Shown here piece by piece: positions 3,793 through 30,006 of a stretch of DNA of 30,534 nucleotides (its first letter is position 1; each line of letters opens with the position of its first letter). A model generated the notes under the pieces. It worked only from the letters and a program-made list of their open reading frames with translations. It was not told the DNA's origin and did not search any database. The stretch comes from Elusimicrobiota bacterium. Its GTDB lineage: Bacteria; CAYTYR01; UBA6262. The DNA lies in contig PMCA01000016.1 of NCBI GenBank assembly GCA_003153935.1, forward strand, positions 1 through 30,534, given 5' to 3'. The position numbers and the translations under genes are program-made.

Positions 3793-3809
3793 ACCCACTC
3801 CCGCTGTTA

Positions 3810-4091
3810 TTATTCCTCGCCGAATTTACTATTAACCAGTTCTTCTATCCGCCCCAGCAATTCCTCTTCCTTATCGCCGACGACAGTGATGAGCAGATTG
3901 GAGCCGGCCTCCGCCGCCAGCATCATCAGACCCATGATACTTTTGCCGTCAACTTCCTCGCCCTCTTCTCCGTTGCGAACGACACGCACCTTGACCCGGG
4001 CTTGTTTATACTGGTTAGTCAATTGCACGAACAGGGCCGCTGGCCGCGCGTGCAGTCCTAATCTATTTTTTAGTGCAAATGATTTTTGCAT
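3810..4091 (-). CDS. ptsH: Phosphocarrier protein HPr
   Basis: 93-residue small phosphocarrier that relays phosphate from EI to the IIA components. The active-site motif LGLHARPAA places the phosphorylatable histidine at residue 14. The regulatory-serine motif VDGKSIMGLMML is also present with Ser51, so the protein should be a substrate of the HPr kinase encoded upstream in the same run. The distance from His to Ser is 37 residues, against 31 in E. coli HPr; the surplus lies in an acidic loop (NGEEGEEVDGKS). The ATG at 4091 has AGGA 6 nt upstream. The gene sits between IID and EI and is clearly part of the same transcription unit. Confidence 0.96.
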   Translation of the reverse strand: MQKSFALKNRLGLHARPAALFVQLTNQYKQARVKVRVVRNGEEGEEVDGKSIMGLMMLAAEAGSNLLITVVGDKEEELLGRIEELVNSKFGEE

Positions 4092-4106
4092 TATGTGTCC
4101 TGTCTC

Positions 4107-5526: not shown

Positions 5527-5527
5527 A

Positions 5528-7687: not shown

Positions 7688-8208
7688 TTACTGTCCCCCG
7701 CGATCGTATCGTTTTTGTCACCCATGGTAATCTTCCTGACTGAATCCATTATATTAATGCGCTCGTCGGTCGGGACGATGCGCCCTTCCAATTCTATGCC
7801 CCGGCGTTCCAGTTGGTACAGAGCCTCGATGTCCACCATATCCACGCAGACCGCTTTCAGGATCTGCTTCTTGCCTTCACAGTAATGGATACCGCCGACG
7901 TTGATGCTTTTCACCGGCACTTCTTTCTCTACCAGCGCCAGGGCGTCAGCCGGTGAATTCAACAAGACGATCAAACGGTCATTATCCGGTACTCCGGCCT
8001 TCAGGACCGCGGCCGCTTCGGTGATTGACAGCACCGATAATTTCAAGTTACCGGGCACCGCCATGCTCAGTAGCACCCGCTGCATCTGGTCCTGAGCCAC
8101 CTTATCGTTCACCACCATAATATGGTTGGCCTTGATCGCCTTAACCCAGCCCGCTACTACCTGGCCGTGGACCAACCGGTCATCGATCCTGATTAGTTCA
8201 ATGCCCAT
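7684..8208 (-). CDS. PTS mannose-family IIB component
   Basis: 174-residue cytosolic IIB subunit that accepts phosphate from IIA and transfers it to the incoming sugar. The phosphorylation-site motif RIDDRLVHGQVVAGW is intact with His14, and the following IMVVNDKVAQD and LLSMAVPG segments are typical of ManX-IIB/SorB-type domains. The length fits a free-standing IIB (about 160-170). The ATG at 8208 follows the IIA stop by 2 nt, and its own stop overlaps the GH57 start codon in an ATGA arrangement. It works with the IIA, IIC and IID subunits of the same operon. Confidence 0.94.
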   Translation of the reverse strand: MGIELIRIDDRLVHGQVVAGWVKAIKANHIMVVNDKVAQDQMQRVLLSMAVPGNLKLSVLSITEAAAVLKAGVPDNDRLIVLLNSPADALALVEKEVPVKSINVGGIHYCEGKKQILKAVCVDMVDIEALYQLERRGIELEGRIVPTDERINIMDSVRKITMGDKNDTIAGDSK

Positions 8209-8210
8209 AC

Positions 8211-8624
8211 TTATACCTTCTTCAATTTTTGCAAAAAGACTTCCTTGGCATTTATGATCGTCTTTTGCCCCGTTTGCTTGACTTTCAACACTAGATCCGC
8301 CAGGGACAATATTTCCCGGGAAGAAAAGAACTCCAAGAGCATCGGCAGGTTCACCCCGGTCAGTAGTTCCATTTTATGGTACAGGGTCATGGGCAAGCTG
8401 GTGTTGGTCGGAGTACCTCCGTACATGTCGGTAAATATTATGACCCCGTCTGCCGACTTCAGGTTCTCCAGCGCCGCTTCTATCTTTTTCTTCAGCTCCA
8501 CCGAGCTTTCACCAGGGGTCAGGGAGATGCTTTCCACCTCCGGCTGGCTGCCCACTATGCCCTTGGCTACTTCAATCAACTCTTTCCCTAATTCGCCGTG
8601 GGTGATTACTATGGCTCCGATCAT
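8211..8624 (-). CDS. PTS mannose-family IIA component
   Basis: 137-residue IIA subunit that receives phosphate from HPr and passes it to IIB. The N-terminal motif AIVITHGELGKEL carries the phosphorylatable histidine at residue 9. The FTDMYGGTPTNTSL segment is the other family hallmark, found near the active site and the IIB interface. Its size matches an isolated IIA domain. The ATG at 8624 has a strong GAGG site 5 nt upstream, and the rapZ stop lies just before it. Genes for such a IIA directly after hprK and rapZ are a known arrangement in deltaproteobacteria, where the IIA can be regulatory; here the complete permease follows, so a transport role is likely. Confidence 0.94.
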   Translation of the reverse strand: MIGAIVITHGELGKELIEVAKGIVGSQPEVESISLTPGESSVELKKKIEAALENLKSADGVIIFTDMYGGTPTNTSLPMTLYHKMELLTGVNLPMLLEFFSSREILSLADLVLKVKQTGQKTIINAKEVFLQKLKKV

Positions 8625-8631
8625 AACTACC

Positions 8632-9516
8632 TCACTTGTTCATGTCCCTGTGCTTTACCTTGACGTCATATTTTTTATGCGTCAGGTATTTTTCCAGTTC
8701 ATTCACTATCACTACTGACCGATGTTTGCCGCCGGTACAACCGATACCTATGGTCAGGTAGGATTTGCCTTCTTTGATAAAATAAGGGACCAGGAATTTC
8801 AGTATATCAAATGTTTTCTTCAGAAATTTCTGGGTCACCGGGTTCTTCAGGACAAAGTCGCGTACCTTCCGGTCATTACCGGTATACGGCCTGAGCTCTT
8901 CCACGTAATGCGGATTAGGCAGGAATCGGACGTCAAAGACCAGGTCCGCGTCCAGCGGTATGCCGTACTTATAGCCGAATGACACCAGGTTCACCCGCAT
9001 AGCGCTGGCACTGTCCTCCGCCAGGAAAAACGACTCCAGTATGGTATCCCGCAGTTCCTTGGCCGTCAGGTTGGTGGTATCAATGATGCGGTCGGCCCGG
9101 GACTTTATTTCGCTCAGCAGTTCGCGTTCCTGCTTGATGCCTTCCAGCACGCTGTGGCCCTTGCCTTCTATATCCAGCGGATGCCGGCGGCGAGTTTCGC
9201 TGAAACGGTGCACCAATGCCTCGGTTGAGGCTTCCAGGAACAGGATCTCGTATTTTATCTGCAGTTCATCCAAGTCCTTGAGCGTGTTAAAGAGCGTGTC
9301 CAGGAAACCTCTTTCCCTTATATCTATGCCCAATGCCACTTTGGCGATCTTGCTGCCGGATTGAATCGCTACTTCGGCGAATTTCGGCAGCAGCACCGTC
9401 GGCAAATTATCGATACAAAAAAAACCCAGGTCTTCAAATACATTGATAGCCGAGCTTTTACCGGCTCCGCTCATTCCTGTGATGATGATGAAACGGGTCA
9501 CCTTACTAGGCGGCAA
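8632..9516 (-). CDS. rapZ: RapZ/YvcJ-family nucleotide-binding protein
   Basis: 294 residues, the family length. The Walker A loop GMSGAGKSSA lies near residue 14, followed by FFCIDNLPTVLLP. The C-terminal signature IGIGCTGGKHRSVVIVNELE is that of the RapZ RNA-binding domain. In E. coli RapZ directs RNase E to the small RNA GlmZ and so controls glucosamine-6-P synthase; in Bacillus the homologue is a nucleotide-binding protein of looser function. Which applies here is unknown. The start is TTG at 9516, with GGAG 6 nt upstream and the hprK stop 3 nt before it; a GTG five codons in has a poorer site. The position between hprK and the PTS IIA is conserved in many bacteria. Confidence 0.95.
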   Translation of the reverse strand: MPPSKVTRFIIITGMSGAGKSSAINVFEDLGFFCIDNLPTVLLPKFAEVAIQSGSKIAKVALGIDIRERGFLDTLFNTLKDLDELQIKYEILFLEASTEALVHRFSETRRRHPLDIEGKGHSVLEGIKQERELLSEIKSRADRIIDTTNLTAKELRDTILESFFLAEDSASAMRVNLVSFGYKYGIPLDADLVFDVRFLPNPHYVEELRPYTGNDRKVRDFVLKNPVTQKFLKKTFDILKFLVPYFIKEGKSYLTIGIGCTGGKHRSVVIVNELEKYLTHKKYDVKVKHRDMNK

Positions 9517-9519
9517 GAG

Positions 9520-10461
9520 TTACTCCTTTTTCTTCTTTTCCAATTCTTCCGTCAGCTTCTTCTCAAATTCCTTGGCGCTGTGATAACCGGTCTTTTTCAG
9601 GCGCCAGTTCATCGCCGCTACTTCCACGATCGCGGCGATGTTACGCCCCGGCCGGATAGGCACTATCAATTTCGGCACTTCCACTCCCAGGATCTCATAG
9701 GTGATCTCATCCAGCCCCAAGCGGTCATATTCCTTCTTGGAATCCCATTCCTCCATCTGCATGATTAAGTCGATCTCGCAATCATCCCGGATGGCCCCGG
9801 CCCCGAACAGATTCTTGATGTCGATAATGCCGACTCCGCGGATCTCCATGTGATGCTTGATGAATTCCATGCCTTTGCCGATCAGCAGCGTAGACGATTT
9901 CTTGCGGATGTCAATAACGTCATCAGCAATCAGCCGGTGGCCCCTTTTGACCAATTCCAGGGCGCACTCGCTCTTGCCGATACTGCTTTCTCCCAGGATC
10001 AGCACGCCGACGCCATAAACGTCGATCAGTACCCCGTGCACGCTGGTAGAGGGCGCGAATTTATCTTCCAAATAGGCGGTTACTTCATTGATAAAATTTA
10101 TAGTGTTCAACGGAGTGCGCATGACGGATACCTGTTTATCCTGGGCCAGCTTGAGCAGCTCTTCCGGTGGCTCCAGGCTGCGGGTGATGACAAAGCAGAC
10201 CAGGTCATAGGAAAACAGGTTCTCCAGGATCTGCCGGCGCCGCTGGGAATCCAGTTCGGCCAGATAAGAAAGCTCGGTCATACCCAGCACTTGTATGCGT
10301 TCGAAAGCGAAATATTTGAAATACCCGGCCAGCGCCAGGCCCGGGCGGTTAACGTCGAAAACAGTGATCTTCTTCTCCAGGCCCTTATCCGCGGTCAGGA
10401 CTTCCAGTTTCATGGAAGTTTGCTTTTCTTTCAGGAACTCTCTGATGCTTACACCAGACAT
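9520..10461 (-). CDS. hprK: HPr kinase/phosphorylase
   Basis: 313 residues. HprK phosphorylates HPr on its regulatory serine in response to metabolite and ATP levels and reverses this with phosphate. The conserved VHGVLIDVYG segment (His142), the Walker A loop LGESSIGKSE (about 156-165) and the family signature MEIRGVGIIDIKNLFGAG (about 205-222) are all present. I chose the ATG at 10461 because GAGG lies 6 nt before it and the protein then starts MSGVSIREFL like its relatives. The frame stays open 23 codons further upstream, but that stretch only translates the 7-nt repeat leader. The substrate serine is present in the HPr encoded downstream. The leader contains an unusual imperfect inverted repeat, described separately. 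Confidence 0.96.
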   Translation of the reverse strand: MSGVSIREFLKEKQTSMKLEVLTADKGLEKKITVFDVNRPGLALAGYFKYFAFERIQVLGMTELSYLAELDSQRRRQILENLFSYDLVCFVITRSLEPPEELLKLAQDKQVSVMRTPLNTINFINEVTAYLEDKFAPSTSVHGVLIDVYGVGVLILGESSIGKSECALELVKRGHRLIADDVIDIRKKSSTLLIGKGMEFIKHHMEIRGVGIIDIKNLFGAGAIRDDCEIDLIMQMEEWDSKKEYDRLGLDEITYEILGVEVPKLIVPIRPGRNIAAIVEVAAMNWRLKKTGYHSAKEFEKKLTEELEKKKKE

Positions 10462-10473
10462 AGCTACCTCATT

Positions 10474-10501
10474 TTGTTGATTGTTGATTGTTGATTGCTG
10501 A
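10474..10501. repeat. Four tandem 7-nt repeats in the hprK leader (proximal block)
   Basis: On the plus strand the unit TTGTTGA is repeated three times without a break and is followed by TTGCTGA. On the coding strand this reads as TCAACAA-type heptads ending a few bases before the hprK ribosome binding site. Positions 10476-10495 are complementary to 10526-10545 at 17 of 20 positions. Confidence 0.9.
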
Positions 10502-10526
10502 AAAATTAGGTTTAAAGCTTTTTCGA

Positions 10527-10554
10527 TCAACTATGAACTATCAACTATGAACTG
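10527..10554. repeat. Four tandem 7-nt repeats in the hprK leader (distal block)
   Basis: On the plus strand TCAACTA and TGAACTA alternate for four units, the last ending in G. Together with the block at 10474-10501 it forms an imperfect inverted repeat with a 30-nt loop. The block lies directly after the ptsN stop and upstream of hprK. Confidence 0.9.
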
Positions 10555-10557
10555 CTT

Positions 10558-11016
10558 TTAATATTCGTCTTCTTCTTTCAATATCTTGAGCGCTTCTTCC
10601 GCAGTCTTGGCGTCGCGCAGTGACTGACGGAAATGCTTATCCTTCAGTATCCGCGAGATCTTGGCCAGGGCCTTCAAATGGACCCCGGTCGATTCCACCG
10701 GCGCCAGCAGCAGGAACACCAGGTATACCGGTTCACCGTCCAGGCTTTCAAATTCTATCCCCTGCTTGGATGAGGCCAGGGAGATCACCACGTTATCAAC
10801 CTCATCGGTCTTGCCGTGGGGTATAGCCACCCCGGAGCCGATACCCGTGGAACCCAGTTCCTCGCGGTCCATCAGTATCTTCACCACTTTGTCTTTGCCG
10901 GAGATCTTTTTGGTCTTGACCAGCGCATCTACCATCTCGTTCAGTACATCTTTCTTTTCCTTGCCCTGCAGGTTAACAATAACCGCGTCCTTGACGATGA
11001 AATCCATTAACTTCAT
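10558..11016 (-). CDS. ptsN: PTS IIA-Ntr-type regulatory protein (PtsN-like)
   Basis: 152 residues of the fructose/nitrogen-type IIA domain. The phosphorylation motif GSGVAIPHGKTDEVD contains His67, and the C-terminal LLLAPVESTGVHLKALAKISRIL segment is typical. As in E. coli it lies directly after hpf, where PtsN is a regulatory, non-transporting IIA linked to potassium and nitrogen homeostasis. It could also accept phosphate from the HPr encoded downstream. The ATG at 11016 follows AGGAGG at an 8-nt spacing; the TTG 6 nt further upstream sits too close to that site. There is no companion IIB/IIC of fructose type in view, which favours a regulatory role. Confidence 0.92.
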   Translation of the reverse strand: MKLMDFIVKDAVIVNLQGKEKKDVLNEMVDALVKTKKISGKDKVVKILMDREELGSTGIGSGVAIPHGKTDEVDNVVISLASSKQGIEFESLDGEPVYLVFLLLAPVESTGVHLKALAKISRILKDKHFRQSLRDAKTAEEALKILKEEDEY

Positions 11017-11028
11017 TAGCAAGCCCTC

Positions 11029-11583
11029 CTAAAATGTCGGTTCCAATAGGCCAAATGTGCCGTCATGCCTTTTATAAACTATATTCATTTTTTTATTCTC
11101 TATATTGATGAAGGCCCAGAAATCATTATTAGCCAATTCCATCCTCTTGATAGCTTCTTTGGCGGACATCGGGGTCATATCGAATTCTTTTTTATTCATG
11201 GTCGGCGGCAGGTTTTCCGCCAAATGTTCCACGCCCTCCCGGGAAATTATCCGTCCTTCGGCTTTCAGCACCCTGGTAGTGCGCTGGTCACGATGCTTGT
11301 TAGTCCTGATCTTATCCTTAAAACGCTTCATTTGCCGGTCCAGGCTGTCGGCGACCATGTCGATCGCGGCGTACAGGTCCTGGGCCTCTTCCTTAGCGTT
11401 GATCCGGGTGCCGCCGGCGTTCACCGTGGCCTCCACCGTAGAATAGTATTTCTCCACGGTCAGGATCACATGCGCGTCGATGACATTTTCGTAATATTTG
11501 CCTACCTTGCTTATCTTTTCAGTGGCATATTGCTTCAATTGCGGTGTTAATTTAGCGTGTCGAGCGGTAATGTTTACTTGCAT
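11029..11583 (-). CDS. hpf: Long-form ribosome hibernation-promoting factor
   Basis: 184 residues in two domains. Residues 1 to about 100 are the YfiA/HPF ribosome-binding domain (NITARHAKLTPQLKQYATEKISKV start, DLYAAIDMVADSLDRQMKR helix). A linker follows, and residues of about 130-184 form the C-terminal dimerisation domain (KEFDMTPMSAKEAIKRMEL, NIVYKRHDGTFGLLEP). Long HPF makes inactive 100S ribosome dimers in stationary phase. The ATG at 11583 is preceded by AGGAG at a 7-nt spacing. It is the first gene after the only sizeable gap of this region, which carries a promoter-like sequence, so it probably heads its own transcript continuing into ptsN and hprK. The family is secure. Confidence 0.95.
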   Translation of the reverse strand: MQVNITARHAKLTPQLKQYATEKISKVGKYYENVIDAHVILTVEKYYSTVEATVNAGGTRINAKEEAQDLYAAIDMVADSLDRQMKRFKDKIRTNKHRDQRTTRVLKAEGRIISREGVEHLAENLPPTMNKKEFDMTPMSAKEAIKRMELANNDFWAFINIENKKMNIVYKRHDGTFGLLEPTF

Positions 11584-11629
11584 TCAGTAGCTCCTTTCGG
11601 TCTGGTGTCATATTATTGGCGGAAATTTT

Positions 11630-11658
11630 ATAATAGCATACCTGCTGTAATTTATAAA
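11630..11658 (-). promoter_or_regulatory. Putative sigma70-type promoter ahead of hpf
   Basis: On the minus strand a -35-like TTTATA (11658-11653) and a -10-like TATTAT (11635-11630) are separated by exactly 17 nt. Each matches the consensus at 4/6 and 5/6 positions. It lies in the 68-nt gap between lptB and hpf, 47 nt before the hpf start codon. The -35 box overlaps the lptB stop. There is no mapped start site, so the call rests on sequence alone. Confidence 0.4.
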
Positions 11659-12374
11659 GTAAATTCTTTGCCCAAATAGATCTGGCGGGCTTTTTCGTTG
11701 GCGATCAGCTCTTTTGTGGTGCCGGATATCAGGATCTTGCCCTCGTACATGATATAGGCCCGCTCAGTGATCTTGAGCGTTTCCCGCACGTTATGATCGG
11801 TGATCAGCACCCCCAGGCCCTTGTCCCGCAACCGGGAAATTATCTGCTGTATCTCCATGACTGCAATCGGGTCGATGCCGGTAAAAGGTTCGTCCAGCAG
11901 GATGAATTTCGGCTTGGTGACCAGGGCGCGGCTGATCTCTACCCGGCGCTTTTCCCCGCCGCTCAGCAGATAAGCTTTAGCTTTGGCCAGGTCGGTGATG
12001 TCAAATTCTTCCAGCAGCTCCCTCATCCGGTGGTATCTTTCTTCCCGGCTGATGGGCAGGGTTTCCAGTATGGCCAAGATATTCTCCTCCACCGTCAGAT
12101 AGCGGAATATGGAAGGCTCCTGGGAAAGGTAGCCGATACCCATTCTGGCTCTTTTATACATCGGGAAATCGGTAATATCCGTGTCATCCAGCTGTATCGT
12201 GCCGGAATCCGGCGAGATCAATCCGACCATCATATAGAAAGTCGTGGTCTTCCCGGCGCCATTAGGACCCAGCAAACCTACTATTTCGCCCTCGTTGACG
12301 TTAACGGAGATCTTATTGACCACCGGACGTTTAGCGTAATTTTTTATAAGTTCCTGAGTATACAATCTGGTCAT
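11652..12374 (-). CDS. lptB: LPS export ABC transporter ATP-binding protein LptB
   Basis: 240 residues, a complete ABC ATPase. Walker [11 protein letters not shown] is near residue 37, the Q-loop is [16 protein letters not shown], the signature is [15 protein letters not shown], Walker B is [13 protein letters not shown], and the H-loop is [11 protein letters not shown]. The SQEPSIFR Q-loop and the LSGGEKRR signature are typical of LptB. It powers extraction of LPS from the inner membrane together with LptF/LptG, which are not in the window, and LptC. The start overlaps the lptA stop by 4 nt (ATGA). Position after lptC and lptA confirms the assignment. Confidence 0.97.
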
Positions 12375-18266: not shown

Positions 18267-19253
18267 TTAGCCCCTTCTCAGACTTTGTTTTAACTCCGTC
18301 GGCGTACAGGTAGCCGTGCCCACTTTACCGACCACTATACCGGCCGCGTGATTAGCGATGATAGCCGCGTTCAGCAAACCGGCCTTAGCAGCCAGGGCCA
18401 AGGTCAGAGTCGATATCACCGTATCTCCTGCACCGCTGACATCAAAGACCTCTTGAGCCATGGTAGGTATATGGACCGCCTTTTTACCCTGATTAAACAA
18501 GGTCATGCCCTTTTCACCCTGGGTGATCAACAATGATTCGCATTTCAACTTCTTGATTATCAACTCGCCAAGTTTTTCGGTCTCTTCCTGGGTGCGCGGC
18601 AGAGGATAATGGATACCTTGCGCAGCTTCCAGGGTATTAGGGGTAATACAGGTTACTTTTTTATATTTAAGGAAGTGTTCCACTTTCGGGTCCACCGTAA
18701 TTACCTTTTTGTGTTTATGGGCCAGGATGATAGCCTCGGTCAAAACCTGAGGGCAGATCAGTCCCTTGCCGTAATCCGAAATTATTACCCCGTCAACCTG
18801 GGGAATCATCTTACTTATGTATTCCAGGACCCGGCTGATCACTTTCTTGTTCTTCAGCTGGCGGTCTTCCCGGTCGATACGAACCACCTGCTGGATATTG
18901 GCGATAACCCTGGTCTTCTCTATCGTCCCGGAGCAGAATTCATCTACCAGTACTCCGCCGGTATCAATGCCCAGGTTCTGTAATTGCCCTTTGATCCTCT
19001 CTCCCAGGGAATCGTTGCCGACCACCCCGCACAGGTAAACATTGCCGTCCAGGGCCTGGATGTTATGAGCCACGTTGCCGCTGCCGCCGGGTATAAAATC
19101 CTCTTTCGAGACTTCCACTACGGGCACCGGTGCTTCCGGCGAGATCCGGGTCACTTTTCCCCAGATATAGTGATCTACGATAATATCCCCGACCACCAAG
19201 ACCTTGGCCTTCTTGAAACCATCGATAATTTCCTTGAAATTTTGTGAGGGCAT
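18267..19253 (-). CDS. HldE-type D-glycero-manno-heptose-7-phosphate kinase domain (RfaE1)
   Basis: 328-residue PfkB-family sugar kinase matching the N-terminal half of HldE. Family features are VLVVGDIIVDHYIWG, the RISPEAPVPVVEV segment typical of RfaE, the GGSGNVAHNI substrate loop, ISDYGKGLI, and the catalytic VSGAGDTVI near the C-terminus. It should add the 1-phosphate to heptose-7-phosphate. The adenylyltransferase half is encoded separately at 21569-22057, so E. coli's bifunctional HldE is split here. A second, more divergent kinase of the same family lies at 24837-25841. The ATG at 19253 has TAGGAG 4 nt upstream. This copy keeps the SPEAPVPVV motif and is the better candidate for the canonical heptose kinase. 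Confidence 0.9.
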   Translation of the reverse strand: MPSQNFKEIIDGFKKAKVLVVGDIIVDHYIWGKVTRISPEAPVPVVEVSKEDFIPGGSGNVAHNIQALDGNVYLCGVVGNDSLGERIKGQLQNLGIDTGGVLVDEFCSGTIEKTRVIANIQQVVRIDREDRQLKNKKVISRVLEYISKMIPQVDGVIISDYGKGLICPQVLTEAIILAHKHKKVITVDPKVEHFLKYKKVTCITPNTLEAAQGIHYPLPRTQEETEKLGELIIKKLKCESLLITQGEKGMTLFNQGKKAVHIPTMAQEVFDVSGAGDTVISTLTLALAAKAGLLNAAIIANHAAGIVVGKVGTATCTPTELKQSLRRG

Positions 19254-19259
19254 AAGCTC

Positions 19260-20198
19260 CTACCTGCTCAGTAATGTTTGGGCTAGCAGCGGTATCATGA
19301 TCTCATGCTGGCCGATGAAATTATAGCCGCGGCCTTTTTTACCGACCGGCCGCTGGACAATATTGGCCCGGGGGCGGTACTGGTACACCATATCGAAATT
19401 CGCCGTGGTGAAATCATCCAGCCGGTAACCCAGGTTACGGTCAATGGTGACCGCCTTCAAGAACACTTCCGGCAGGATAACTGCGGAGCCGAAATTCAGA
19501 ACTACCCCTCCCCGGTTGATCCCGGCGATGACGCCGGCGAACTTCAGAAAATCCCGGTAGCTGGCTTCACCCCAGGCCGCGCCATCGCAGTACGGGTGCT
19601 GGTAAATAATATCTGTGCCGATAGCCACATGCACGGTTACCGGTATATCGTTCTTGTAAGCTTGCGCTAAAATACTTTGTTTGTGATAACGGCAGGTCTT
19701 GCCGGCGATCATCTTACCCATGGACTCGCCTATACCCAGGCCCTGCCGGTTGCCTTCGCTGACGGTCTGGTTGACGATACGTCCTGTCTCGGCGGCCATG
19801 CCGAAGCTTCCATCCTGGATGTTTGCGGCCACGTCCTCGCTGGTTTTCCCGGCGTAAGCTATCTCAAAATCATGGATAACGCCGGCGCCATTCAGAGCGA
19901 TGGCATTAATATAGCCGCGCTCCATTAATTGGATGATCAGGGGATTGAGCCCGCACTTGATAACATGTGCCCCGAACATCCAGACGACGGGTTTCCCTGA
20001 TTTTTTAGCCTTGACTATCAGGCTGACCAGTTCCTTAAGATCTTTGCCGGCCAAAATATCCGGCAGGCCATTGATAAAACCGCCAAAACCGCCCACTGGC
20101 TTGACAGGCTTAGCAAAATCAGCAATGCGCACCTTGCTTTGACGCGAACTAACGGGATAAGTTTTAATCTTCTTCAGGTCTATCTTTACTTTACTCAC
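19260..20198 (-). CDS. Deoxyhypusine-synthase-like protein of unknown function
   Basis: 312 residues. I read it as a member of a bacterial family distantly resembling deoxyhypusine synthase: NGAGVIHDFEIAYAGKTSEDV and FGMAAETGR are recognisable family blocks, with a Rossmann-like, NAD-enzyme appearance. The region corresponding to the catalytic Trp-Gly-Lys of eukaryotic and archaeal enzymes reads DGAAWGEASYRDF here, with Glu in place of the lysine. Bacteria lack the eIF5A substrate, so a different reaction is likely. The start is GTG at 20198, overlapping the DUF3108 gene's stop by 4 nt with GGGGG upstream. It sits inside an LPS heptose cluster, which suggests a link to envelope sugar or lipid metabolism. 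Function is unknown, and the relationship itself is from memory of motifs. Confidence 0.6.
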   Translation of the reverse strand: MSKVKIDLKKIKTYPVSSRQSKVRIADFAKPVKPVGGFGGFINGLPDILAGKDLKELVSLIVKAKKSGKPVVWMFGAHVIKCGLNPLIIQLMERGYINAIALNGAGVIHDFEIAYAGKTSEDVAANIQDGSFGMAAETGRIVNQTVSEGNRQGLGIGESMGKMIAGKTCRYHKQSILAQAYKNDIPVTVHVAIGTDIIYQHPYCDGAAWGEASYRDFLKFAGVIAGINRGGVVLNFGSAVILPEVFLKAVTIDRNLGYRLDDFTTANFDMVYQYRPRANIVQRPVGKKGRGYNFIGQHEIMIPLLAQTLLSR

Positions 20199-21568: not shown

Positions 21569-22057
21569 TTAAATCTTACCCTTATTTTTCTGTAGTATTC
21601 TTTGTATCAGGTCCTTGGTAGCGTGCTCCTTCTTATCGCCGGTGATGGCCACTTTACCGCCGCAAGCTTTTACCGACTCCCTCTCCGGCACGCTTTGCCT
21701 GGTGTAATCGGTGCCCTTCACCTGTATATCGGGACGAAGAGCTTTAATTACATTCTCTACCGTTTTTTCCCTGAATAAAACTACATAATCCACAGCCGCC
21801 AGCGCCGCGACGATTTCCGCTCTGGCCCGGCCGGGCATAATAGGTCTTTTGGCGTCTTTGACCTGTTTGATGGAATGGTCATCGTTTATCGCCACGACCA
21901 GAACATCACCCAGCTTTTTGCCGCCCTCCAGGTACCGGATATGGCCCACATGGAGCAGGTCAAAACAGCCATTGGCCAGCACTATACTTTTATGCTGGTA
22001 TTTTATTAATTTTACTATCTTTTTCAATTGCTGTAAAGACTTTATTTTACTTTTCAC
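21569..22057 (-). CDS. HldE-type heptose-1-phosphate adenylyltransferase domain (RfaE2)
   Basis: 162 residues, the free-standing C-terminal half of HldE. The nucleotidyltransferase signature ANGCFDLLHVGHIRYLEGG is near the N-terminus, followed by AINDDHSIKQVKDAKRPI and RAEIVAALAAVDYVV; VKGTDYT lies further on. It should form ADP-glycero-manno-heptose from the 1-phosphate. I chose the GTG at 22057 because GGAGG lies 5 nt before it and it overlaps the stop of the upstream glycosyltransferase by 4 nt; a GTG 15 nt earlier has no such site. It is separated from both kinase genes, unlike the fused E. coli enzyme. Confidence 0.9.
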   Translation of the reverse strand: MKSKIKSLQQLKKIVKLIKYQHKSIVLANGCFDLLHVGHIRYLEGGKKLGDVLVVAINDDHSIKQVKDAKRPIMPGRARAEIVAALAAVDYVVLFREKTVENVIKALRPDIQVKGTDYTRQSVPERESVKACGGKVAITGDKKEHATKDLIQRILQKNKGKI

Positions 22058-22743
22058 GCCAGCCTCCGCCACAGCTTCAATAATTCGCTAAAAGCCTTGA
22101 AAATCACCTTTAATTTGGCTCCGGTCGGCTCGCCATGTTCCCTGGGCAGGTGCGTCACCCCTACTTCGGCGAAACGGTACCCCAATTTCTTGGCTTTTAT
22201 CAGCATTTCCGCGCTGGCTACCGCCCCATTCGATTCAATCTCGATCCGCGAGAATATCTCCCGGTGGAACATTTTGAACGCGCAATCGATATCCTTAACG
22301 CCCAGGTTGAAAAGGAGATTCACTCCCGCCCGATACAGCCAGGCGTTCAAAACCCGGTACCAGGGATCCTGACGCTCCATCCGGTAACCCAGAACCAAAT
22401 CGTAATTTTCTATCAAGGGCAGGAACTTGGCTATCTCCTCCATATTGAACTGGCCGTCGCCGTCGCTAAAGCACACCAGGTCATACCTGGCGCTGAATAT
22501 TCCCGAGCGCAGGGCGGCGCCGTACCCCAGGTTCTGTTCATGCTTGACCAGCCTGACTTCCGGGTACATAGCGGCTATCTTCGTTACTATCGCCCCGGTC
22601 CGGTCGCGGCTGCCGTCGTCCACCACGATGATCTCGTAATTATCGAACATCCTGCCCAGGACCGACACCGCCCGGGTAACGGTTTTTTCAATATTTTGTT
22701 CCTCATTGTAACAGGGGAAAAATAAGCTTAGTGATTTAGCCAT
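22054..22743 (-). CDS. GT2 family glycosyltransferase (DPM1-like)
   Basis: 229 residues. The nucleotide-binding opening SLFFPCYNEEQNIEKTV, then IIVVDDGSRDRTGAI, LGYGAALRSGIFSA and the DxD-like SDGDGQFNMEE motif identify a GT-A fold family 2 enzyme. The KDIDCAFKMFHREIF segment is typical of the dolichyl/undecaprenyl-phosphate mannosyltransferase subgroup. No membrane anchor follows, so it is cytosolic. It may make a polyprenyl-phosphate sugar donor for the membrane glycosyltransferase encoded immediately upstream at 22748-24853, a common pairing with GT39/ArnT enzymes. Its stop overlaps the next start. Donor and acceptor cannot be read from sequence. Confidence 0.87.
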   Translation of the reverse strand: MAKSLSLFFPCYNEEQNIEKTVTRAVSVLGRMFDNYEIIVVDDGSRDRTGAIVTKIAAMYPEVRLVKHEQNLGYGAALRSGIFSARYDLVCFSDGDGQFNMEEIAKFLPLIENYDLVLGYRMERQDPWYRVLNAWLYRAGVNLLFNLGVKDIDCAFKMFHREIFSRIEIESNGAVASAEMLIKAKKLGYRFAEVGVTHLPREHGEPTGAKLKVIFKAFSELLKLWRRLA

Positions 22744-22747
22744 TTAC

Positions 22748-24853
22748 TTACTCCCCGACCATGATTTTATCGTCCTGCAGTAAAACTTTTCCTATGCCGG
22801 TGTATACCGGCCATTCCGCCGTGGGTACCAGCGCCAGCGGCTTCTCCAGCATCGCGGCGTACAGCCAGTGAGGAATAGTGAACATCCCGACTTTCACTTT
22901 CAGGAATTCCGCGTTCATTTTCCGGTCATCCGCGCTGATTTTGAATTTGAGCCGCAGGTTAATATTCTTATACTTCCCCTCTACATTGGCGATGCCATGC
23001 TGGATGCTGACCAGCGGCGATTGTATTCTTTTAGCCTTATCCGCCAGCAAGTCCTGTAAGCTGTTGGCTTTAACTGTAAATTCAGGGTGGATCTCTTTCA
23101 TGCTATAGATCAGTAGTTTGTTTTTCTCCCAGAACAGGGGCAGATCCATTTCCAGGCCTTTTATTTCCAGCTTCAGATCTTCCAGCCAGATACCTTTGAC
23201 CCTGGCCCTCTTGGCGGTTATGATCACTTTTTCGAACTGTCCGCTCATGGCCTTATTAATATTATCTCCCACTAGTTTAATACGCAGGTCTTGACAGTCC
23301 TCCAGATATTCACTTAAGCTCTTATGAAGCTTGTTCTCCATGGTGAGATATGAAAAACCGGCTACCAATGATCTACTCGGCAGCAGTTGTCTTTTATAAA
23401 CCATTAAGTAGGTATCATCCGGCAAGCCAAACAACCCAATTAATTTAAAGTTATGCGCAAAGCCGCTTTTGGGATCCAGCATTTCCTTACGCGCGTCCGG
23501 CATACCGCCCAAGGTGAAAGCCGGTCCCAGATCCCCGGTCTTAGTTATCACGTAATCCGCGAACTGTCCCAGGTTATTGCCATACCCTTTGAACAGGATA
23601 GGCAACTGATGACTGTCAGCGTAGAACTGCAGGGTTTCGCTGTGCCAGTAGCTATGATTGGCGACCACGCTGACCGAGGTGACCAGTTTGCTTTTAGTCC
23701 GGGTTATCAGGTCAGTAACTTCCTGCTGCTGCCAGTCTTCTGGATGCGGGTTCTGGCAATAGTAGTAACGGGACTGGCCAAAAGAGGTTAGCATGAACTG
23801 GGCAAAACTGAACAGGACCAAAAGGGTTATCAGACCGTTGCGATAAAAACGGTTCTTTATGTTCACCAGCCAGAAACAGGAAATAATGCTGACCGCGGCC
23901 AGAAACGGCAATGTATAGCGGTCGTCCTTATTGCGGACCAGGGTCAATATCAGATACGGTATGACTATCCAAGCCAGTAGTATCTTATCCTGTTTCTTGT
24001 AATTAAGCAGGAATATCACCAGCCCGATAATAAATAATACCAGGTATACCGGCTGGACCTGCAGTAACAGGTTATGGGCGTAGTACCAGAGGCTCTGCCA
24101 GGTCAGGATCGCCGGATCGCCTTCGCTGGCGGCGATAGCGCCGTTCTTGATGGTGTATCTGGCCAGCCTCAATAAATTATATCCGTACCAGGGAGAAGCC
24201 ACGACTAAAGCAACTAACGCGGAGAGGCAGAAATTTCTCTTATTACCGCGCCAGAAACCGTGTACCAGAGGACCTATCAGGAAAAACAGATAGCTCCATT
24301 TCAGGAGCATGCCCAAGCCGAAGATGACGCCAAATAAAAGGCTGGGCGCCAAACGCGTGAACTTGTCACTGCGCAGGTAACAGTAAAATCCCAAAGTGAC
24401 CATACTGGTCAGAGGCAGGTCGATTACATAGGTTCGCGATATGAAGACCAGGAACGGGTACATGGCCACTACCAGGGCGGATAGCAACCCGGTCATAGGG
24501 TTATAAAGTATCTTGCCTATGCCGTACGTCGCCCAAACCAGTATTAGCAGGTATAGCAGGTTTAACAGCAGACCGGAATGCAGCGAAGCGCCCAAAGCCG
24601 CGAAAAATGGCAACGTGGTCAAATGGTACAAGGGCGGATAATATCCCGTGACCGAGATGACCTGCCCGGGCGTATTAGCACCAAAATGCTTTAGCAGGTC
24701 ATAGTACTGCAGTGACAGGTTCAGGTGAACGGCCGAATCCCATGATGGTGGCCGCTGATCCAACCCCAACCATACCAGATTGACGGTGATCAAAAATATC
24801 GATAGCAGTATTAATACCCAGTATTCCCTTTTCAACCTAATCCTCTTTTTCAT
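22748..24853 (-). CDS. GT39/ArnT-like membrane glycosyltransferase with extra C-terminal DUF2993-like domain
   Basis: 701 residues. Residues 1 to about 430 are a polytopic GT-C protein: a first membrane helix at about 11-31, then the loop motif PPSWDSAVHLNLSLQYY with the likely catalytic Asp39, and some ten further hydrophobic segments. Such enzymes use polyprenyl-phosphate sugars to glycosylate lipid A or proteins in the periplasm. Residues of about 503-701 are soluble and resemble DUF2993/LmeA phospholipid-binding domains (DLRIKLVGDNINKAMSGQFE, KGIWLEDLKLEIKGLEMDLP, VKVGMFTIPHWLYAAML). This fusion is unusual. The ATG at 24853 overlaps the upstream kinase stop by 17 nt; a TTG at 24835 behind GAGG is an alternative start. 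The GT39 half is secure, the C-terminal domain assignment tentative. Confidence 0.82.
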   Translation of the reverse strand: MKKRIRLKREYWVLILLSIFLITVNLVWLGLDQRPPSWDSAVHLNLSLQYYDLLKHFGANTPGQVISVTGYYPPLYHLTTLPFFAALGASLHSGLLLNLLYLLILVWATYGIGKILYNPMTGLLSALVVAMYPFLVFISRTYVIDLPLTSMVTLGFYCYLRSDKFTRLAPSLLFGVIFGLGMLLKWSYLFFLIGPLVHGFWRGNKRNFCLSALVALVVASPWYGYNLLRLARYTIKNGAIAASEGDPAILTWQSLWYYAHNLLLQVQPVYLVLFIIGLVIFLLNYKKQDKILLAWIVIPYLILTLVRNKDDRYTLPFLAAVSIISCFWLVNIKNRFYRNGLITLLVLFSFAQFMLTSFGQSRYYYCQNPHPEDWQQQEVTDLITRTKSKLVTSVSVVANHSYWHSETLQFYADSHQLPILFKGYGNNLGQFADYVITKTGDLGPAFTLGGMPDARKEMLDPKSGFAHNFKLIGLFGLPDDTYLMVYKRQLLPSRSLVAGFSYLTMENKLHKSLSEYLEDCQDLRIKLVGDNINKAMSGQFEKVIITAKRARVKGIWLEDLKLEIKGLEMDLPLFWEKNKLLIYSMKEIHPEFTVKANSLQDLLADKAKRIQSPLVSIQHGIANVEGKYKNINLRLKFKISADDRKMNAEFLKVKVGMFTIPHWLYAAMLEKPLALVPTAEWPVYTGIGKVLLQDDKIMVGE

Positions 24854-25841
24854 TATCCAGTTTTTGTTTTATTTCAGGGATGGAAACAACGGCCGTACCG
24901 CGTTTCATCACTGCTACGCCTGCGGCCAGGTTAGCCAGTTCGGCGGCTTCTTTTAAACCCGCTCCTCCAGCCAGGGCCAGGGTAGCGCAGCTGGCCACCG
25001 TATCACCGGCGCCGGTAACATCCACCGCGTCGTCACTGCCGGCGATGTCGATATGGGTTATTTTGCCTTTGGGTTCGAACAGGGTCATGCCGTTGCGGCC
25101 CTGCGTTATCAAAACGCCTTTGCATTTGACTTTGGCCAGTAACCTGGCCCCTACCTCTTTCAGGGCCTTCTCTCCGTCCACTTTCATCCCCACGGCCGGT
25201 GCCGCTTCAGTTTCATTGGGTGTTATCAATGTGGCCCCTTCGTATTTGGTAATATTATAGCGCGAGTCCACCACCAGCGGTTTCTGGTATTTATGGACCA
25301 GGCCCAGCAGGACATCGCGGACTCTTTCGGTTATCAAACCGGCGCCATAGTCGCTGACCAGCACGGCGTCCATATCCGGTATATGCGCGGCCAGAACCCT
25401 GAGCACACGGGCTTCCAGTTCTTTACTAAGGGGCTTATCCGATTCCCGGTCTATACGGACAACCTGCTGACGGGCGGTATGATAGTCTCCGGCCATGATC
25501 CTGGTCTTGGTAACGGTTGGGCTGTCAACATCCACGATCATCCTGGAAGTTACTATTTTCTTATCACGCATGATCTTCAGCATCTGCCGGCCGGCCTTAT
25601 CCTGGCCTATAATTCCTACCGGGAAAACCCTGCCGCCCATGGCGTTGATATTATTCACGGAATTAGCCGCTCCGCCGAGGATTATCTCCTCGGTGTCGTA
25701 TTTCAGGATGATAACCGGCGCTTCCCGCGATACCCGGGAAGTCTTGCCGAAAATATACCGGTCGGCTACCATGTCTCCCAGCACCATTACTTTTTTGTCC
25801 CTGAAATTATTCAGGATCCTTGTCAGCTTTTCTTTATCCAA
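24837..25841 (-). CDS. Second HldE-type PfkB kinase (divergent paralogue)
   Basis: 334-residue PfkB-family kinase of the RfaE1 type: VMVLGDMVADRYIFG, SRVSREAPVIIL, GGAANSVNNINAMGG, VSDYGAGLI and the catalytic VTGAGDTVAS. It departs from the copy at 18267-19253 in the sugar-facing segment (SREAPVIIL for SPEAPVPVV). It may therefore use another sugar phosphate or anomer. I prefer the TTG at 25841: GAGGAG lies 5 nt before it, and 16 residues then precede the KV of the first strand, exactly as in the other kinase. A GTG at 25862, 5 nt after the upstream stop, would add 7 residues. It is followed by the GT39 fusion gene and preceded by a small unknown gene. Confidence 0.85.
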   Translation of the reverse strand: MDKEKLTRILNNFRDKKVMVLGDMVADRYIFGKTSRVSREAPVIILKYDTEEIILGGAANSVNNINAMGGRVFPVGIIGQDKAGRQMLKIMRDKKIVTSRMIVDVDSPTVTKTRIMAGDYHTARQQVVRIDRESDKPLSKELEARVLRVLAAHIPDMDAVLVSDYGAGLITERVRDVLLGLVHKYQKPLVVDSRYNITKYEGATLITPNETEAAPAVGMKVDGEKALKEVGARLLAKVKCKGVLITQGRNGMTLFEPKGKITHIDIAGSDDAVDVTGAGDTVASCATLALAGGAGLKEAAELANLAAGVAVMKRGTAVVSIPEIKQKLDNEKED

Positions 25842-25867
25842 ATTGATCTCCTCGTTTAACACCGTTC

Positions 25868-26101
25868 CTATAGCTCCTTCACAGCTTCCTGTAACAACGG
25901 CAGGATGCCTTGCACTTCTTCTTTGGTCAAACGGCCGAGTTTGGCGAAGGAGAAATTGCCGCCCTCGTCCTGTACCGACCGGGATATCTGTATTTTCTTG
26001 GGACCGTTGTTGTAGGAATAAACGCTAACGGACAGTTTCCCCTTCTCTCCCGCGAATTCTTTCACGAACACTTGCTGGTCTAAACTGCTGTCATAAGCCA
26101 T
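25868..26101 (-). CDS. Small conserved-looking protein, possibly PC4-like
   Basis: 77 residues, ATG at 26101 with AGGAGAGGAAA upstream at a good spacing, so it is likely translated. I do not recognise a named family with certainty. The pattern of beta-strands (KLSVSVYSYNNGPKKIQISRSV) followed by FSFAKLGRLTKEEVQGILPLLQEAVKEL loosely resembles bacterial PC4/p15-like single-stranded-DNA-binding domains. No signal peptide, membrane segment or cysteines are visible. It lies between the ligase-phosphatase fusion and the second heptose kinase, within the same run. Its role is unknown; a nucleic-acid-binding or regulatory function is only a guess. Confidence 0.7.
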   Translation of the reverse strand: MAYDSSLDQQVFVKEFAGEKGKLSVSVYSYNNGPKKIQISRSVQDEGGNFSFAKLGRLTKEEVQGILPLLQEAVKEL

Positions 26102-26144: not shown

Positions 26145-27998
26145 TTATTTCTTTTCCTGTTGGATGATCCATTCAACGGCGTCGTACAGATCCCCGGCGA
26201 CGAAGTCGGGGCCTTTGCTCCACTGGTCTTTTTCGAATTCATAGGCGCCTTTGCCGTAACCGGTCAGGACCAGAATTCCCTTGGCCCCTACCTGGTGCGC
26301 GTATTCCACATCGGAGTATTTATCACCGATAACATAAGACTTGGTCAGGTCCAGCCCGAATTTCTCTTTGGCCTGCAGCATCATGCCCGGCTTGGGCTTA
26401 CGGCAGTCGCAATTATCCTTCGGGTGATGCGGGCAGTAATAGATAGCGTCCAGGAAGGCGCTCTCGGCGGCCAGATTCTCTTCCATCCTTTTATGCACTA
26501 TGCCAACCATCTCTTCCTTGAAATATCCCCGTCCTACTCCGGCCTGGTTGGTTACTACTATGGCCCTGAGCTTATTCTGATTTAGCAACCTGACGGCCTT
26601 AGCGGTTCTTTTTAGCAGGTGAAACCGGTCAACATGGTTGATGTATCCCACTTCCTCGCTCATGGTGCCGTCCCGGTCCATGAAGACGGCCATGTTCGCA
26701 TAGCCACCGGTCTCCGCCAGTCCCTTATGCCGTACCCACATTACCAGAGCCATCATGAAATAAAGCATGGTGATCACAATGCCATCGTTGTAAGTTGTTT
26801 CGGTCAATCCCGCGCCGAGGAATGCCACAACGCTGGTCATCCCGCCCAGAACCACGGCTTTGGCAAAGGTATTGTCTGCAGGTATCAGGCGGACAGTTTT
26901 ATATCCGTAGATGAAGAAAGCAACCGCCAGCCAGATAAAAGCTGCTATGCCCAGCAGTCCCCGCTCCACGGTGATCTGCACCAGGTTGCTGTGCAGTTCG
27001 TTCTCGGTCCCTTTATGGGTCGCTTCCGGGCTCTTATATTGTTCATATATTTCATGAATATTTCCCAGCCCTATCCCCAGTACCGGATTCTCTTTGATCA
27101 TCTGCCAGCCGCTCTGCCACATGAATACCCGTTCCTTGCTGTCATTGTCCTGGCGCCAATTAATGGCTTTGGCGATGCGTTCCTGTATAGTGATACGCTT
27201 TCCCTGCGTTATCCCGGATATCCCCAGAACCAGTAATGGGATGACCACCAGAATAGCTGCTACCAGGGCTATAGCTTTCTTAGAGGGCCGGAAGATCACT
27301 AAACTAAAGATACCTAATATGGCTCCCAGCAATGGCCCGCGGCTATTGGAGAACATCAGACTGATCAGCATTATCAGCGTGGCCAGCCAGAGCCAGATCC
27401 TCTTCTTTTTATCTTTATTGAAAACCGCCAGGCAAAAGATTAAGGTTAAGGTCATCATGACGCATTCGGCAAATGTTAACGGATGGCTCCGGGTACCGAT
27501 AGCCCGTCCGTGATCGAGGGCGATATGTTTCAAAACGCTGTATGGCCAGTTCTGCAGGGCCGGCCAGGGATTATAAACTATCGCGGTATCTACTCGGTTA
27601 ATTCCCAAGACATACTGCGCGATCGCGTATATGCTGACCAGCAGGGAACTGCCAAGGAAAAAATATACCATCTTTTTTAACTGGCTCTCTTCTTTGATGT
27701 TACTTACCAACAGCCAGAAGAACAGTACCAGAGCGATCTGTTTAAGGGCATATATACTATGCATGGGGTCGATGGCCATAATACTGGAGGCGATGGTCAC
27801 TGCCAGCAGCCAGAATATGGGCCGGTCTATATCTGTCTTGACGAAACTGTTCCCGACCACAATGGTCCGGGCCAGCCAGACCAGCAGCAGGAAGATCCAA
27901 ACCGTGTCAGTGGCAGCGATCGATATGGGCAAAACCAGTGCCAATAGCAGGAGCCCGGCCTTGATGATCTTGTCAAATATGGTAATTTGGCTAGTCAT
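26145..27998 (-). CDS. O-antigen ligase/polymerase fused to GmhB heptose-bisphosphate phosphatase
   Basis: 617 residues in one frame. Residues 1 to about 425 are a polytopic Wzy/WaaL-type protein, with about ten hydrophobic segments, the FSNSRGPLLGAILG motif and a periplasmic loop with MWQSGWQMIKENPVLGIGLGN and ENELHSNLVQITVERGLLG. Residues 436-617 are a complete GmhB-type HAD phosphatase: MAVFMDRDGT (Asp441, Asp443), VVTNQAGVGRGYF, the zinc motif YYCPHHPKDNCDCRKPKPG and YVIGDKYSDVEYA. GmhB removes the 7-phosphate from heptose-1,7-bisphosphate in the cytosol. The ATG at 27998 follows GGGAGAATGA. The two activities lie in one polypeptide; an internal ATG at 26693 could also start free GmhB, but no strong ribosome site precedes it. 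Confidence 0.85.
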   Translation of the reverse strand: MTSQITIFDKIIKAGLLLLALVLPISIAATDTVWIFLLLVWLARTIVVGNSFVKTDIDRPIFWLLAVTIASSIMAIDPMHSIYALKQIALVLFFWLLVSNIKEESQLKKMVYFFLGSSLLVSIYAIAQYVLGINRVDTAIVYNPWPALQNWPYSVLKHIALDHGRAIGTRSHPLTFAECVMMTLTLIFCLAVFNKDKKKRIWLWLATLIMLISLMFSNSRGPLLGAILGIFSLVIFRPSKKAIALVAAILVVIPLLVLGISGITQGKRITIQERIAKAINWRQDNDSKERVFMWQSGWQMIKENPVLGIGLGNIHEIYEQYKSPEATHKGTENELHSNLVQITVERGLLGIAAFIWLAVAFFIYGYKTVRLIPADNTFAKAVVLGGMTSVVAFLGAGLTETTYNDGIVITMLYFMMALVMWVRHKGLAETGGYANMAVFMDRDGTMSEEVGYINHVDRFHLLKRTAKAVRLLNQNKLRAIVVTNQAGVGRGYFKEEMVGIVHKRMEENLAAESAFLDAIYYCPHHPKDNCDCRKPKPGMMLQAKEKFGLDLTKSYVIGDKYSDVEYAHQVGAKGILVLTGYGKGAYEFEKDQWSKGPDFVAGDLYDAVEWIIQQEKK

Positions 27999-28020: not shown

Positions 28021-29067
28021 TTACTTCACTAATGTTTGTACTACCTTCAGTACTTTAGCTACCGTCAGGTTGCTGAGGCAACTCAATTTGTGGCACTCCG
28101 GATCACTGCCGCAGGGACTGCAGGATATTTCTTCGCGGATGACCGTGTGCCCTTCCCCGTAGGGCCCAAACTGCAGGGGATTGGACGGACCGAAAATGGC
28201 CGCCACCCGGGTGCCGACTGCCACCGCCAGGTGCATGGGACCGCTGTCCTGCGCGATAACACAGGCGCATCTCTGGAAAAGCGCCGCCATCTGCAGAACT
28301 GAAACATCCCAGAGAACGATTACTTTATATTTATTGAGCTTATCTTTTATTTCCTTGATCACCTGGTCGCCATGGTAGCCTACGACCATGACTTTTACAT
28401 ACTTTTCCTTGGTTAATTCATTGATCAGATTTATGAAGTTCCCCGCCGGCCAGATCCTGGCTGGATGCCCAGCTCCGGGGTGTATGCCGATAAGCATATC
28501 GTCCGGGCCGAAGTTGTTCTTATCCAGGACATCATGGGCCCAGCTCCTGGTATCATCATCGATAAACACTTCCAACTCTACTTTTTCTTCTTTATAACCT
28601 AAAGAGCGCATCAGGTCCAAATTATATTCCACGGCGTGCTTCTTGAAATCCTCTTTAAAGGCCACTTTTTTAGTTAAAAAATAACCAGCTTTTTTCTTAT
28701 TGGCCCCAACCCGTTCCGGGATGCGGGCTAATTTCGCCATCAGCGCCTTGCGCCAATCTGCGTTCACGATAACCGCCAGTTTAAAGCCGCCGGCCTTTAT
28801 TTTGCCGATCATCTGACGGTACTGCGCCCAGGTAGCCTCTTTTTTCAGCTGGTCCCGTGACCATGAGGGATTAAAAAGTATCAATTCGTCAACCTGGGGA
28901 TTATGAGCGAACACATCCCTAGTGTATTCCTTCAGTAGGACAGCGATATAACTTCCCGGGTATAACTGTTTTAAGACACGTGGCAGGAAGCTGGCCATGA
29001 CCGCATCGCCAAGGTTGTCCAGCTCAATAATCAGTATTTTTTTGTGTTTCAAGCTGTTATCTGCCAT
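28021..29067 (-). CDS. GT9 ADP-heptose:LPS heptosyltransferase-like protein
   Basis: 348 residues of the GT9 (WaaC/WaaF/WaaQ) family. The N-terminal KKILIIELDNLGDAVMASFLP is typical, as is the C-terminal nucleotide-binding segment DSGPMHLAVAVGTRVAAIFGPSNP. The final part has a four-cysteine cluster (CSPCGSDPECHKLSC), which many bacterial members share. It should transfer heptose from ADP-heptose onto KDO or core heptose in the cytosol. The ATG at 29067 follows AGGGA at a 6-nt spacing. It lies between the lpxL-like gene and the ligase fusion. Which heptose it adds (I, II or III) cannot be told. Confidence 0.92.
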   Translation of the reverse strand: MADNSLKHKKILIIELDNLGDAVMASFLPRVLKQLYPGSYIAVLLKEYTRDVFAHNPQVDELILFNPSWSRDQLKKEATWAQYRQMIGKIKAGGFKLAVIVNADWRKALMAKLARIPERVGANKKKAGYFLTKKVAFKEDFKKHAVEYNLDLMRSLGYKEEKVELEVFIDDDTRSWAHDVLDKNNFGPDDMLIGIHPGAGHPARIWPAGNFINLINELTKEKYVKVMVVGYHGDQVIKEIKDKLNKYKVIVLWDVSVLQMAALFQRCACVIAQDSGPMHLAVAVGTRVAAIFGPSNPLQFGPYGEGHTVIREEISCSPCGSDPECHKLSCLSNLTVAKVLKVVQTLVK

Positions 29068-29079: not shown

Positions 29080-29102
29080 TCCGCCGACGCTTTAGTGGCG
29101 GA
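29080..29102. repeat. Palindrome at the lpxL-like stop codon
   Basis: Inverted repeat TCCGCC ... GGCGGA with two further pairs after a bulged G and a 6-nt loop, 23 nt in all. It contains the stop codon of the lpxL-like gene and ends just upstream of the GT9 ribosome site. No run of T follows, so it is not a typical intrinsic terminator. Confidence 0.65.
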
Positions 29103-30006
29103 TGCCATCTGTATTTTCGGGTCTGGTTTTCCAACGGTTATGTACCCAGAACCACTGCTCCGGATCTTTTAGTATCCAGTTCTCGATCACCTGGTTGCAC
29201 AGGCGGGTATTATAATTAACATACTCTTGCCGGTCGCTCTTCTCAGCCAGGACCAGCTCTCTATCGATGATTATCCTATGCCGGCCATCGGGCTGCCGTA
29301 TCATGTGTATGGGTATGACTGCCGTGCCGGTTTTCTGCGTCAGCAACGGCACCAGCGGCGTGGTGGCAGCCAGTTTACCGAAGAAATCCACGAACACCGC
29401 GTTCTCATACAGGTTCTGGTCTATCAGGATACCCACGATCTCATTGCGGCGCAGGCATTTAATGACATCCTTGACGCTGTTAACGTTGGCGATAACTTCT
29501 TCACCAAAGTTGGAACGTATCCTGTTGACCAGCAGGTCAAGGCGGGGATTATCCAGCGCCCGGGCCAGCACGCTCAATTTGAACCCCAGAGCGCTGACTT
29601 CCATCCCCAGCATCTCCCAGTTGCCGAAATGCCCAGTCATCAATATAACGCCCTTACCGCGGGCCAGGGCCGCCTCAATATGCTCCCGCCCTTCTACTTC
29701 CACGTGCTCCAGCAGTTGGGCCCTAGTCCACTTCTCCGAGTAAATAAATTCGACCAGGGTCCGGCCGACATTTTGGAAGACCGCCTTAGCCACACGGTTT
29801 ATCTCCTCCGGTTTTTTATCGGGGAAAACGAAGGACAGGTTACTCTTCGCCAGATTCCGCCGACTGCCCCATAACCCGTATACCAGGGATCCCATCCCGG
29901 CTCCCAGGCGCACCGCCATCCGGTAAGGCAGGCAGCGTACCTTGAAGACAAAGATCTGGACCAGAATATATTCTATAAGACTAATTGCTTCAGTTTTTTG
30001 AGCCAC
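29092..30006 (-). CDS. Lipid A acyltransferase, LpxL/HtrB family
   Basis: 304 residues, the usual length of LpxL/LpxM late acyltransferases. One N-terminal hydrophobic segment (about 10-22) is followed by MAVRLGAGMGSLVYGL, the catalytic HX4E motif in MTGHFGNWEML (His126, Glu131), the GILIDQNLYENAVFVDFFG segment and VIPIHMIRQPDGRHRI. It adds a secondary acyl chain to KDO-lipid A or its precursor at the inner membrane. The start is GTG at 30006 with GAGG 4 nt before it. This gives a 34-nt overlap with lpxK, and no better in-frame start is seen. Its 3' end contains part of a palindrome and 7-nt repeat units. Acyl specificity is unknown. Confidence 0.92.
   Translation of the reverse strand: MAQKTEAISLIEYILVQIFVFKVRCLPYRMAVRLGAGMGSLVYGLWGSRRNLAKSNLSFVFPDKKPEEINRVAKAVFQNVGRTLVEFIYSEKWTRAQLLEHVEVEGREHIEAALARGKGVILMTGHFGNWEMLGMEVSALGFKLSVLARALDNPRLDLLVNRIRSNFGEEVIANVNSVKDVIKCLRRNEIVGILIDQNLYENAVFVDFFGKLAATTPLVPLLTQKTGTAVIPIHMIRQPDGRHRIIIDRELVLAEKSDRQEYVNYNTRLCNQVIENWILKDPEQWFWVHNRWKTRPENTDGIRH

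Follow-up and report, generated by a model that had tools for sequence, protein, structure and literature searches.

The window, by which we mean the whole stretch of 30,534 nucleotides that was analysed, is an entire contig (G000:C15) of a 95% complete draft genome of 1.75 Mb, probably from a member of the little-known GTDB candidate phylum UBA6262, now named Ryujiniota (PMC11920076). It contains a gene, stop-free over 617 codons, in which a membrane domain of the O-antigen-ligase type is followed in the same frame by a complete GmhB (Table 1). An earlier note, made from the letters of this DNA alone, had described a single uninterrupted frame of this kind, and its coordinates and reading frame, and the lack of any stop, were confirmed.

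Table 1. Coordinates of the fused gene, its parts and the associated lipopolysaccharide (LPS) genes in the window
Feature	Position	Strand	Basis
Fused gene, O-antigen-ligase-type domain + GmhB, 617 aa	26145..27998	-	ORF list and profile matches
Ligase domain, residues 1-423, 12 predicted TM helices, N-in/C-in	26730..27998	-	Wzy_C, topology score, AF2 model versus WaaL 7tpg
Wzy_C core, residues 205-355, with R220, R290 and H336 in H-S-x9-G-x-x-G	26934..27386	-	Pfam, alignment to 7tpg chain
Linker, residues 423-436	26691..26732	-	Alignment of fused relatives
GmhB domain, residues 436-617, D441/D443, zinc C522/H524/C530/C532	26148..26693	-	NCBIfam, PDB matches
Internal ATG (M436)	26691..26693	-	Not conserved in fused relatives
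GT9 heptosyltransferase, upstream operon neighbour	28021..29067	-	TIGR02195, E 2.8e-36
LpxL-type lipid A acyltransferase	29092..30006	-	Profile match
HldA-type heptose-7-phosphate kinase beside fusion	24837..25862	-	TIGR02198, 320 bits vs cut-off 345
HldC-type heptose-1-phosphate adenylyltransferase	21569..22072	-	TIGR02199, E 1.6e-50

The GmhB half shares a pathway setting with its neighbours, HldA and HldC being encoded in the window and a GmhA-like gene elsewhere in the genome (G000:C4; 183.6 bits, below the curated 209). ADP-D,D-heptose needs no HldD. This epimerase was not found in the window genome; it is clear in the three other genomes of the same family (G001, G002 and G003), and in the last of these (G003:C63:21426-22367) it adjoins a DUF3108 gene. 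Its place in the window genome is taken by a deoxyhypusine-synthase-like gene (19260-20198, reverse strand; a weak match to PF01916, E 6e-8, within the LPS gene cluster) and by a second HldA-type kinase of the same cluster (18267-19253, reverse strand), which at 373 bits lies above the curated HldA cut-off of 345. Also on the reverse strand are a 77-codon ORF between the fusion and HldA (25868-26101), for which a Pfam search gave no match; a glycosyltransferase-39-like membrane protein (22748-24853), the C-terminal part of which is weakly LmeA-like (PF11209, E 1.4e-5); and, downstream of Kdo and Lpt genes, a run (2062-12374) that was read by eye only, from ORF translations, as an LptB-like gene, a ribosome hibernation factor, PTS IIA, HPr kinase and a RapZ-like gene, followed by mannose-type PTS parts, HPr and enzyme I.

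The identities that the earlier note gave to the two halves of the fused protein are supported. The GmhB model of NCBIfam (PRK08942; NF006506) covers residues 436-615 (E 5.4e-51, 172.7 bits against a cut-off of 178), and TIGR00213 gives the same half 126.2 bits against a cut-off of 149.6; the orthologue in a relative with a separate GmhB gene (G004, discussed below) reaches 180 bits, above the NF006506 cut-off. The GmhB structures 2gmw/3l8e were matched by sequence (E about 1e-31), and residues 434-615 of an AF2 model match GmhB 3l8h (Z 10.5). The two catalytic aspartates and the Cys-His-Cys-Cys zinc set named in the earlier note are present, and none of them varies among the fused relatives. 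No GmhB besides the fusion was found in the window genome, and with a histidinol/heptose-phosphatase model the fusion was the sole protein above the cut-off there and in G001 and G003 (G002 has a second, distant one besides the fusion). It is only the company of HldA and HldC that suggests heptose 1,7-bisphosphate, as the beta anomer, for the likely substrate of this domain.

The membrane half carries the Pfam domain Wzy_C (PF04932) at residues 205-355 (E 3.5e-26, 92.2 bits against a cut-off of 31.7), and R220, R290 and H336 are invariant in fused and split relatives alike. The histidine falls in the pattern H-[NSQ]-x9-G-x-x-G, which we take to be the WaaL motif with its histidine in the large periplasmic loop. 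A sequence match to WaaL 7tpg (E 8.9e-9) aligns R220 and R290 with R191 and R265 (numbered by the sequence index of the 7tpg chain, from Cupriavidus metallidurans WaaL), and H336 with a histidine. WaaL has a conserved arginine coordinating the pyrophosphate of undecaprenyl-pyrophosphate (Und-PP), and a catalytic histidine (PMC10449877). The AF2 model likewise has WaaL 7tpg as its best fold match (Z 26.1, 379 residues within 5-429, rmsd 4.6), the next best being SEDS proteins, at Z ≤18.3.

Might the membrane domain nevertheless be another enzyme acting on Und-PP-glycans? The Wzy_C family takes in Wzy polymerase and O-oligosaccharyltransferase too, the acceptor cannot be fixed from sequence alone, and the window genome has nine Wzy_C genes in all, so that with eight besides the fusion the fused domain need not be the WaaL. 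On the other hand, the gene is set between LpxK/LpxL/heptosyltransferase and HldA/HldC, WaaL is the top PDB match in both sequence and fold, and WaaL agrees with it in length and in having 12 helices. We therefore look on a polymerase or oligosaccharyltransferase as a serious but somewhat improbable candidate, and continue with the WaaL-type assignment.

The orientation of the protein in the membrane bears on where its phosphatase would work. A two-sided score of charge and hydropathy was best for an N-in/C-in arrangement with 12 helices (38.0), the alternatives being N-out/C-in (36.1, a small margin) and C-out (34.4, a modest margin), and it placed R290 and H336 in a large loop on the periplasmic side (residues 259-346, approximately). 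Plain 19-residue hydropathy gave 8-11 segments and an unclear charge bias; the two-sided score and the helices of the AF2 model (built from seven sequences; mean pLDDT 66, which is moderate, and lowest at the linker) agree on the same 12 instead. The cytosolic C-terminus that the earlier note had expected is thus also the one predicted here and, because the favoured topology is N-in/C-in with 12 helices, the GmhB domain is predicted to be cytosolic.

How widespread is the fusion? In a search collection that included five species genomes of the phylum, it was present in all four genomes of the window's family, the three others having the same junction and 63-64% identity over the full length (these relatives are MAGs recorded under the names STB_115, NC_groundwater_1672 and UBA6262). 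A homologous fusion occurs also in G059 (RS_2_16) and G062, which are outside the phylum by the grouping of the search tool and whose kinship to the window is given as 'same domain' only (there they are labelled G262 and G389). In G062 it is intact, within a 658-codon stop-to-stop frame. In G059 a frameshift at a T-run, either real or a sequencing error, interrupts the ligase part (L057:4880-5257 and 5214-6845). A fusion profile search of some 390 different genomes drawn from across bacteria (two largely overlapping samples) found no further ligase-GmhB fusions; a scan of 84,980 species was made with two narrow peptide patterns and was not exhaustive. The architecture is therefore shared with related genomes and, because its junction recurs in G001-G003, G062 and G059, is due neither to chance nor to sequencing error: the fusion of ligase and GmhB is real and conserved.

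A possible starting point is seen in G004, the last of the five genomes of the phylum, in which ligase and GmhB are separate, adjacent genes in the same order, on two contigs. The ligase stop overlaps the GmhB start (as ATGA on one contig, by 14 nt on the other), one of the copies has LpxK, LpxL and a GT9 heptosyltransferase upstream, and identity in the ligase is 35-37%. A stop between residues 425 and 436 in relatives had been named in the earlier note as a point against the fusion; such a stop is present only in this distant organism and the fusion stands in the closer family genomes, so that the G004 stop probably marks the likely source of the fusion and is no refutation of it. To judge from these sequences, the split, overlapping pair is the probable ancestral state, and a small indel within such an overlap is enough to give one joined frame. 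GmhB lies directly before HldA and HldC in other bacteria (Orenia, G274, G197). In tests that involved few sequences, long branches and groups chosen after the first tree had been seen, the GmhB tree separated the UBA6262 fusions from the ones in G062 and G059 and weakly rejected a single fused clade (p-AU 0.027), but also rejected holding the UBA6262 sequences with their split relative G004 (p-AU 0.035); on the ligase tree, a single clade of fusions was not rejected (p-AU 0.09). Fusion may thus have taken place once or twice, or the genes of G004 may have been split later.

Comparison of G001 with G003 gave dS 0.87 and dN 0.042 for the ligase (dN/dS about 0.05), and dS 1.15 and dN 0.033 for GmhB (dN/dS about 0.03); with dN so low relative to dS, both halves are under purifying selection. 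The linker between them, about 14 residues in the window protein, is 14-15 residues long in all four family genomes, with a sequence 21% identical between the relatives and the window.

From all this, it seems fairly probable that the gene specifies one bifunctional inner-membrane protein, which originated when two adjacent, translationally coupled genes of an LPS-core operon were joined in frame. The intervening stop or frame would have been lost to leave a single gene, and so simple a loss suffices as an explanation because in G004, where they are unfused, the two genes lie side by side with coupled translation. The N-terminal 12-helix domain would act as a WaaL-type transferase on Und-PP glycans at the periplasmic face, and the GmhB domain, joined through a short linker of unconserved sequence to the point where the last helix emerges in the cytosol, would strip the 7-phosphate from heptose 1,7-bisphosphate, after the step of HldA and before that of HldC (both encoded in the same operon), and would thus be fixed to the membrane on its inner side. 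This plain reading, a passive membrane tether of GmhB through fusion of operon neighbours, presumes that the full-length protein is made with both halves active, that lipid A-core is the acceptor of the glycan, and that tethering has been tolerated, not selected for coupling. By the predicted topology and assigned activities, the two active sites are separated by the membrane and have no common substrate; direct channelling between them is not expected, and co-localisation of the fused GmhB with heptosyltransferases is possible.

The idea of the earlier note, that the fusion would tie heptose-precursor synthesis to the place where LPS is completed, is a hypothesis that the origin of the gene does not require. 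It is nevertheless conceivable that the fusion was selected, the tethered GmhB channelling or regulating heptose supply near the heptosyltransferases or the ligase. The fusion has persisted while four species diverged, its linker keeping a constant length, it is found in two groups for which the weak evidence of the GmhB tree against one fused clade (p-AU 0.027, above) would mean two origins, and a PAP2-GmhB protein met with in the same survey is another membrane protein ending in GmhB. Yet two further enzymes, HldC and a heptosyltransferase, must act before what GmhB makes can reach an acceptor, the linker varies freely in sequence, proteins of the heptosyltransferase-GmhB and GmhB-DUF3108 kinds show fusion to varied operon-type neighbours, and recurrent fusion is already predicted by operon adjacency, all of which makes such selection unlikely. 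We are more doubtful still of the idea that membrane tethering arose repeatedly (as WaaL-GmhB in two lineages and PAP2-GmhB elsewhere) because fixing this step to the inner side of the membrane links the making of heptose precursors to the assembly of core or O-antigen.

Another reading is that free GmhB arises from a translation start inside the gene, at 26693, or from proteolytic cleavage in the linker, the fusion then being incidental. The ATG at 26693 does encode M436, at the position given in the earlier note; it coincides with the beginning of the domain and has a weak GGTGG upstream, and there is an ATG in the G062 linker too. In G001, G002 and G003, by contrast, non-start codons stand in its place and the linker has no ATG, GTG or TTG (in G003 there is no start codon from the last helix to DRDGT). 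Because the ATG is not conserved and these linkers are start-free, a conserved internal start was rejected, and it seems unlikely that a separately made GmhB is a conserved product; its release by proteolysis is possible. Taken as a whole, we give the free phosphatase little credence. As for an assembly or frame artefact, MAGs of this sort do carry errors (the frameshift at the T-run in G059 being a case in point), but the same junction in the independently assembled records JAQTPL01, JACRDM01 and DJVG01, and in G062, rules this out to near certainty.

The joining of ligase to GmhB, which the earlier note did not recall as described, appears in no paper found in the open-access text searched, and within that literature the architecture is indeed undescribed. 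If the full-length protein is active, it would offer a natural handle on whether ADP-heptose supply in the cytosol and LPS completion in the periplasm are physically linked; the genomes also form a clear series, from split to fused, of genes whose translation is coupled.

Each half is close to a well-known protein. With C. metallidurans WaaL (PDB 7tpg/7tpj; PF04932) the window protein shares the fold over residues 5-429, the Arg/Arg/His sites, 12 helices and an LPS gene setting, but the solved WaaL stops after its last helix, whereas the window protein continues with a 182-residue phosphatase. With Escherichia coli GmhB (2gmw/3l8e) it shares the HAD core, two catalytic aspartates, the C-x-H ... 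C-x-C zinc site and an operon with HldA and HldC; its zinc loop is shorter, and GmhB, usually free and soluble, in this case forms the C-terminal part of a membrane protein. The same survey yielded GT9-GmhB (three genomes), SIS-GmhB, PAP2-GmhB (two genomes) and GmhB-DUF3108 (loci L112, L113, L117, L116, L119, L120 and L118). Long GmhB frames in G147, G335 and G204 were set aside as probable high-GC read-through, their N-terminal part having no Pfam domain. Like the window protein, the GT9, SIS, PAP2 and DUF3108 fusions have GmhB in frame with a partner typical of LPS or heptose neighbourhoods, and PAP2-GmhB resembles it further in being a membrane protein with a C-terminal GmhB, but the partners differ and none is an O-antigen ligase. 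Because GmhB has these other partners elsewhere, its joining to envelope-biosynthesis proteins is a recurrent pattern, which the present fusion widens; the ligase-GmhB pairing is an undescribed combination, not a new kind of system.
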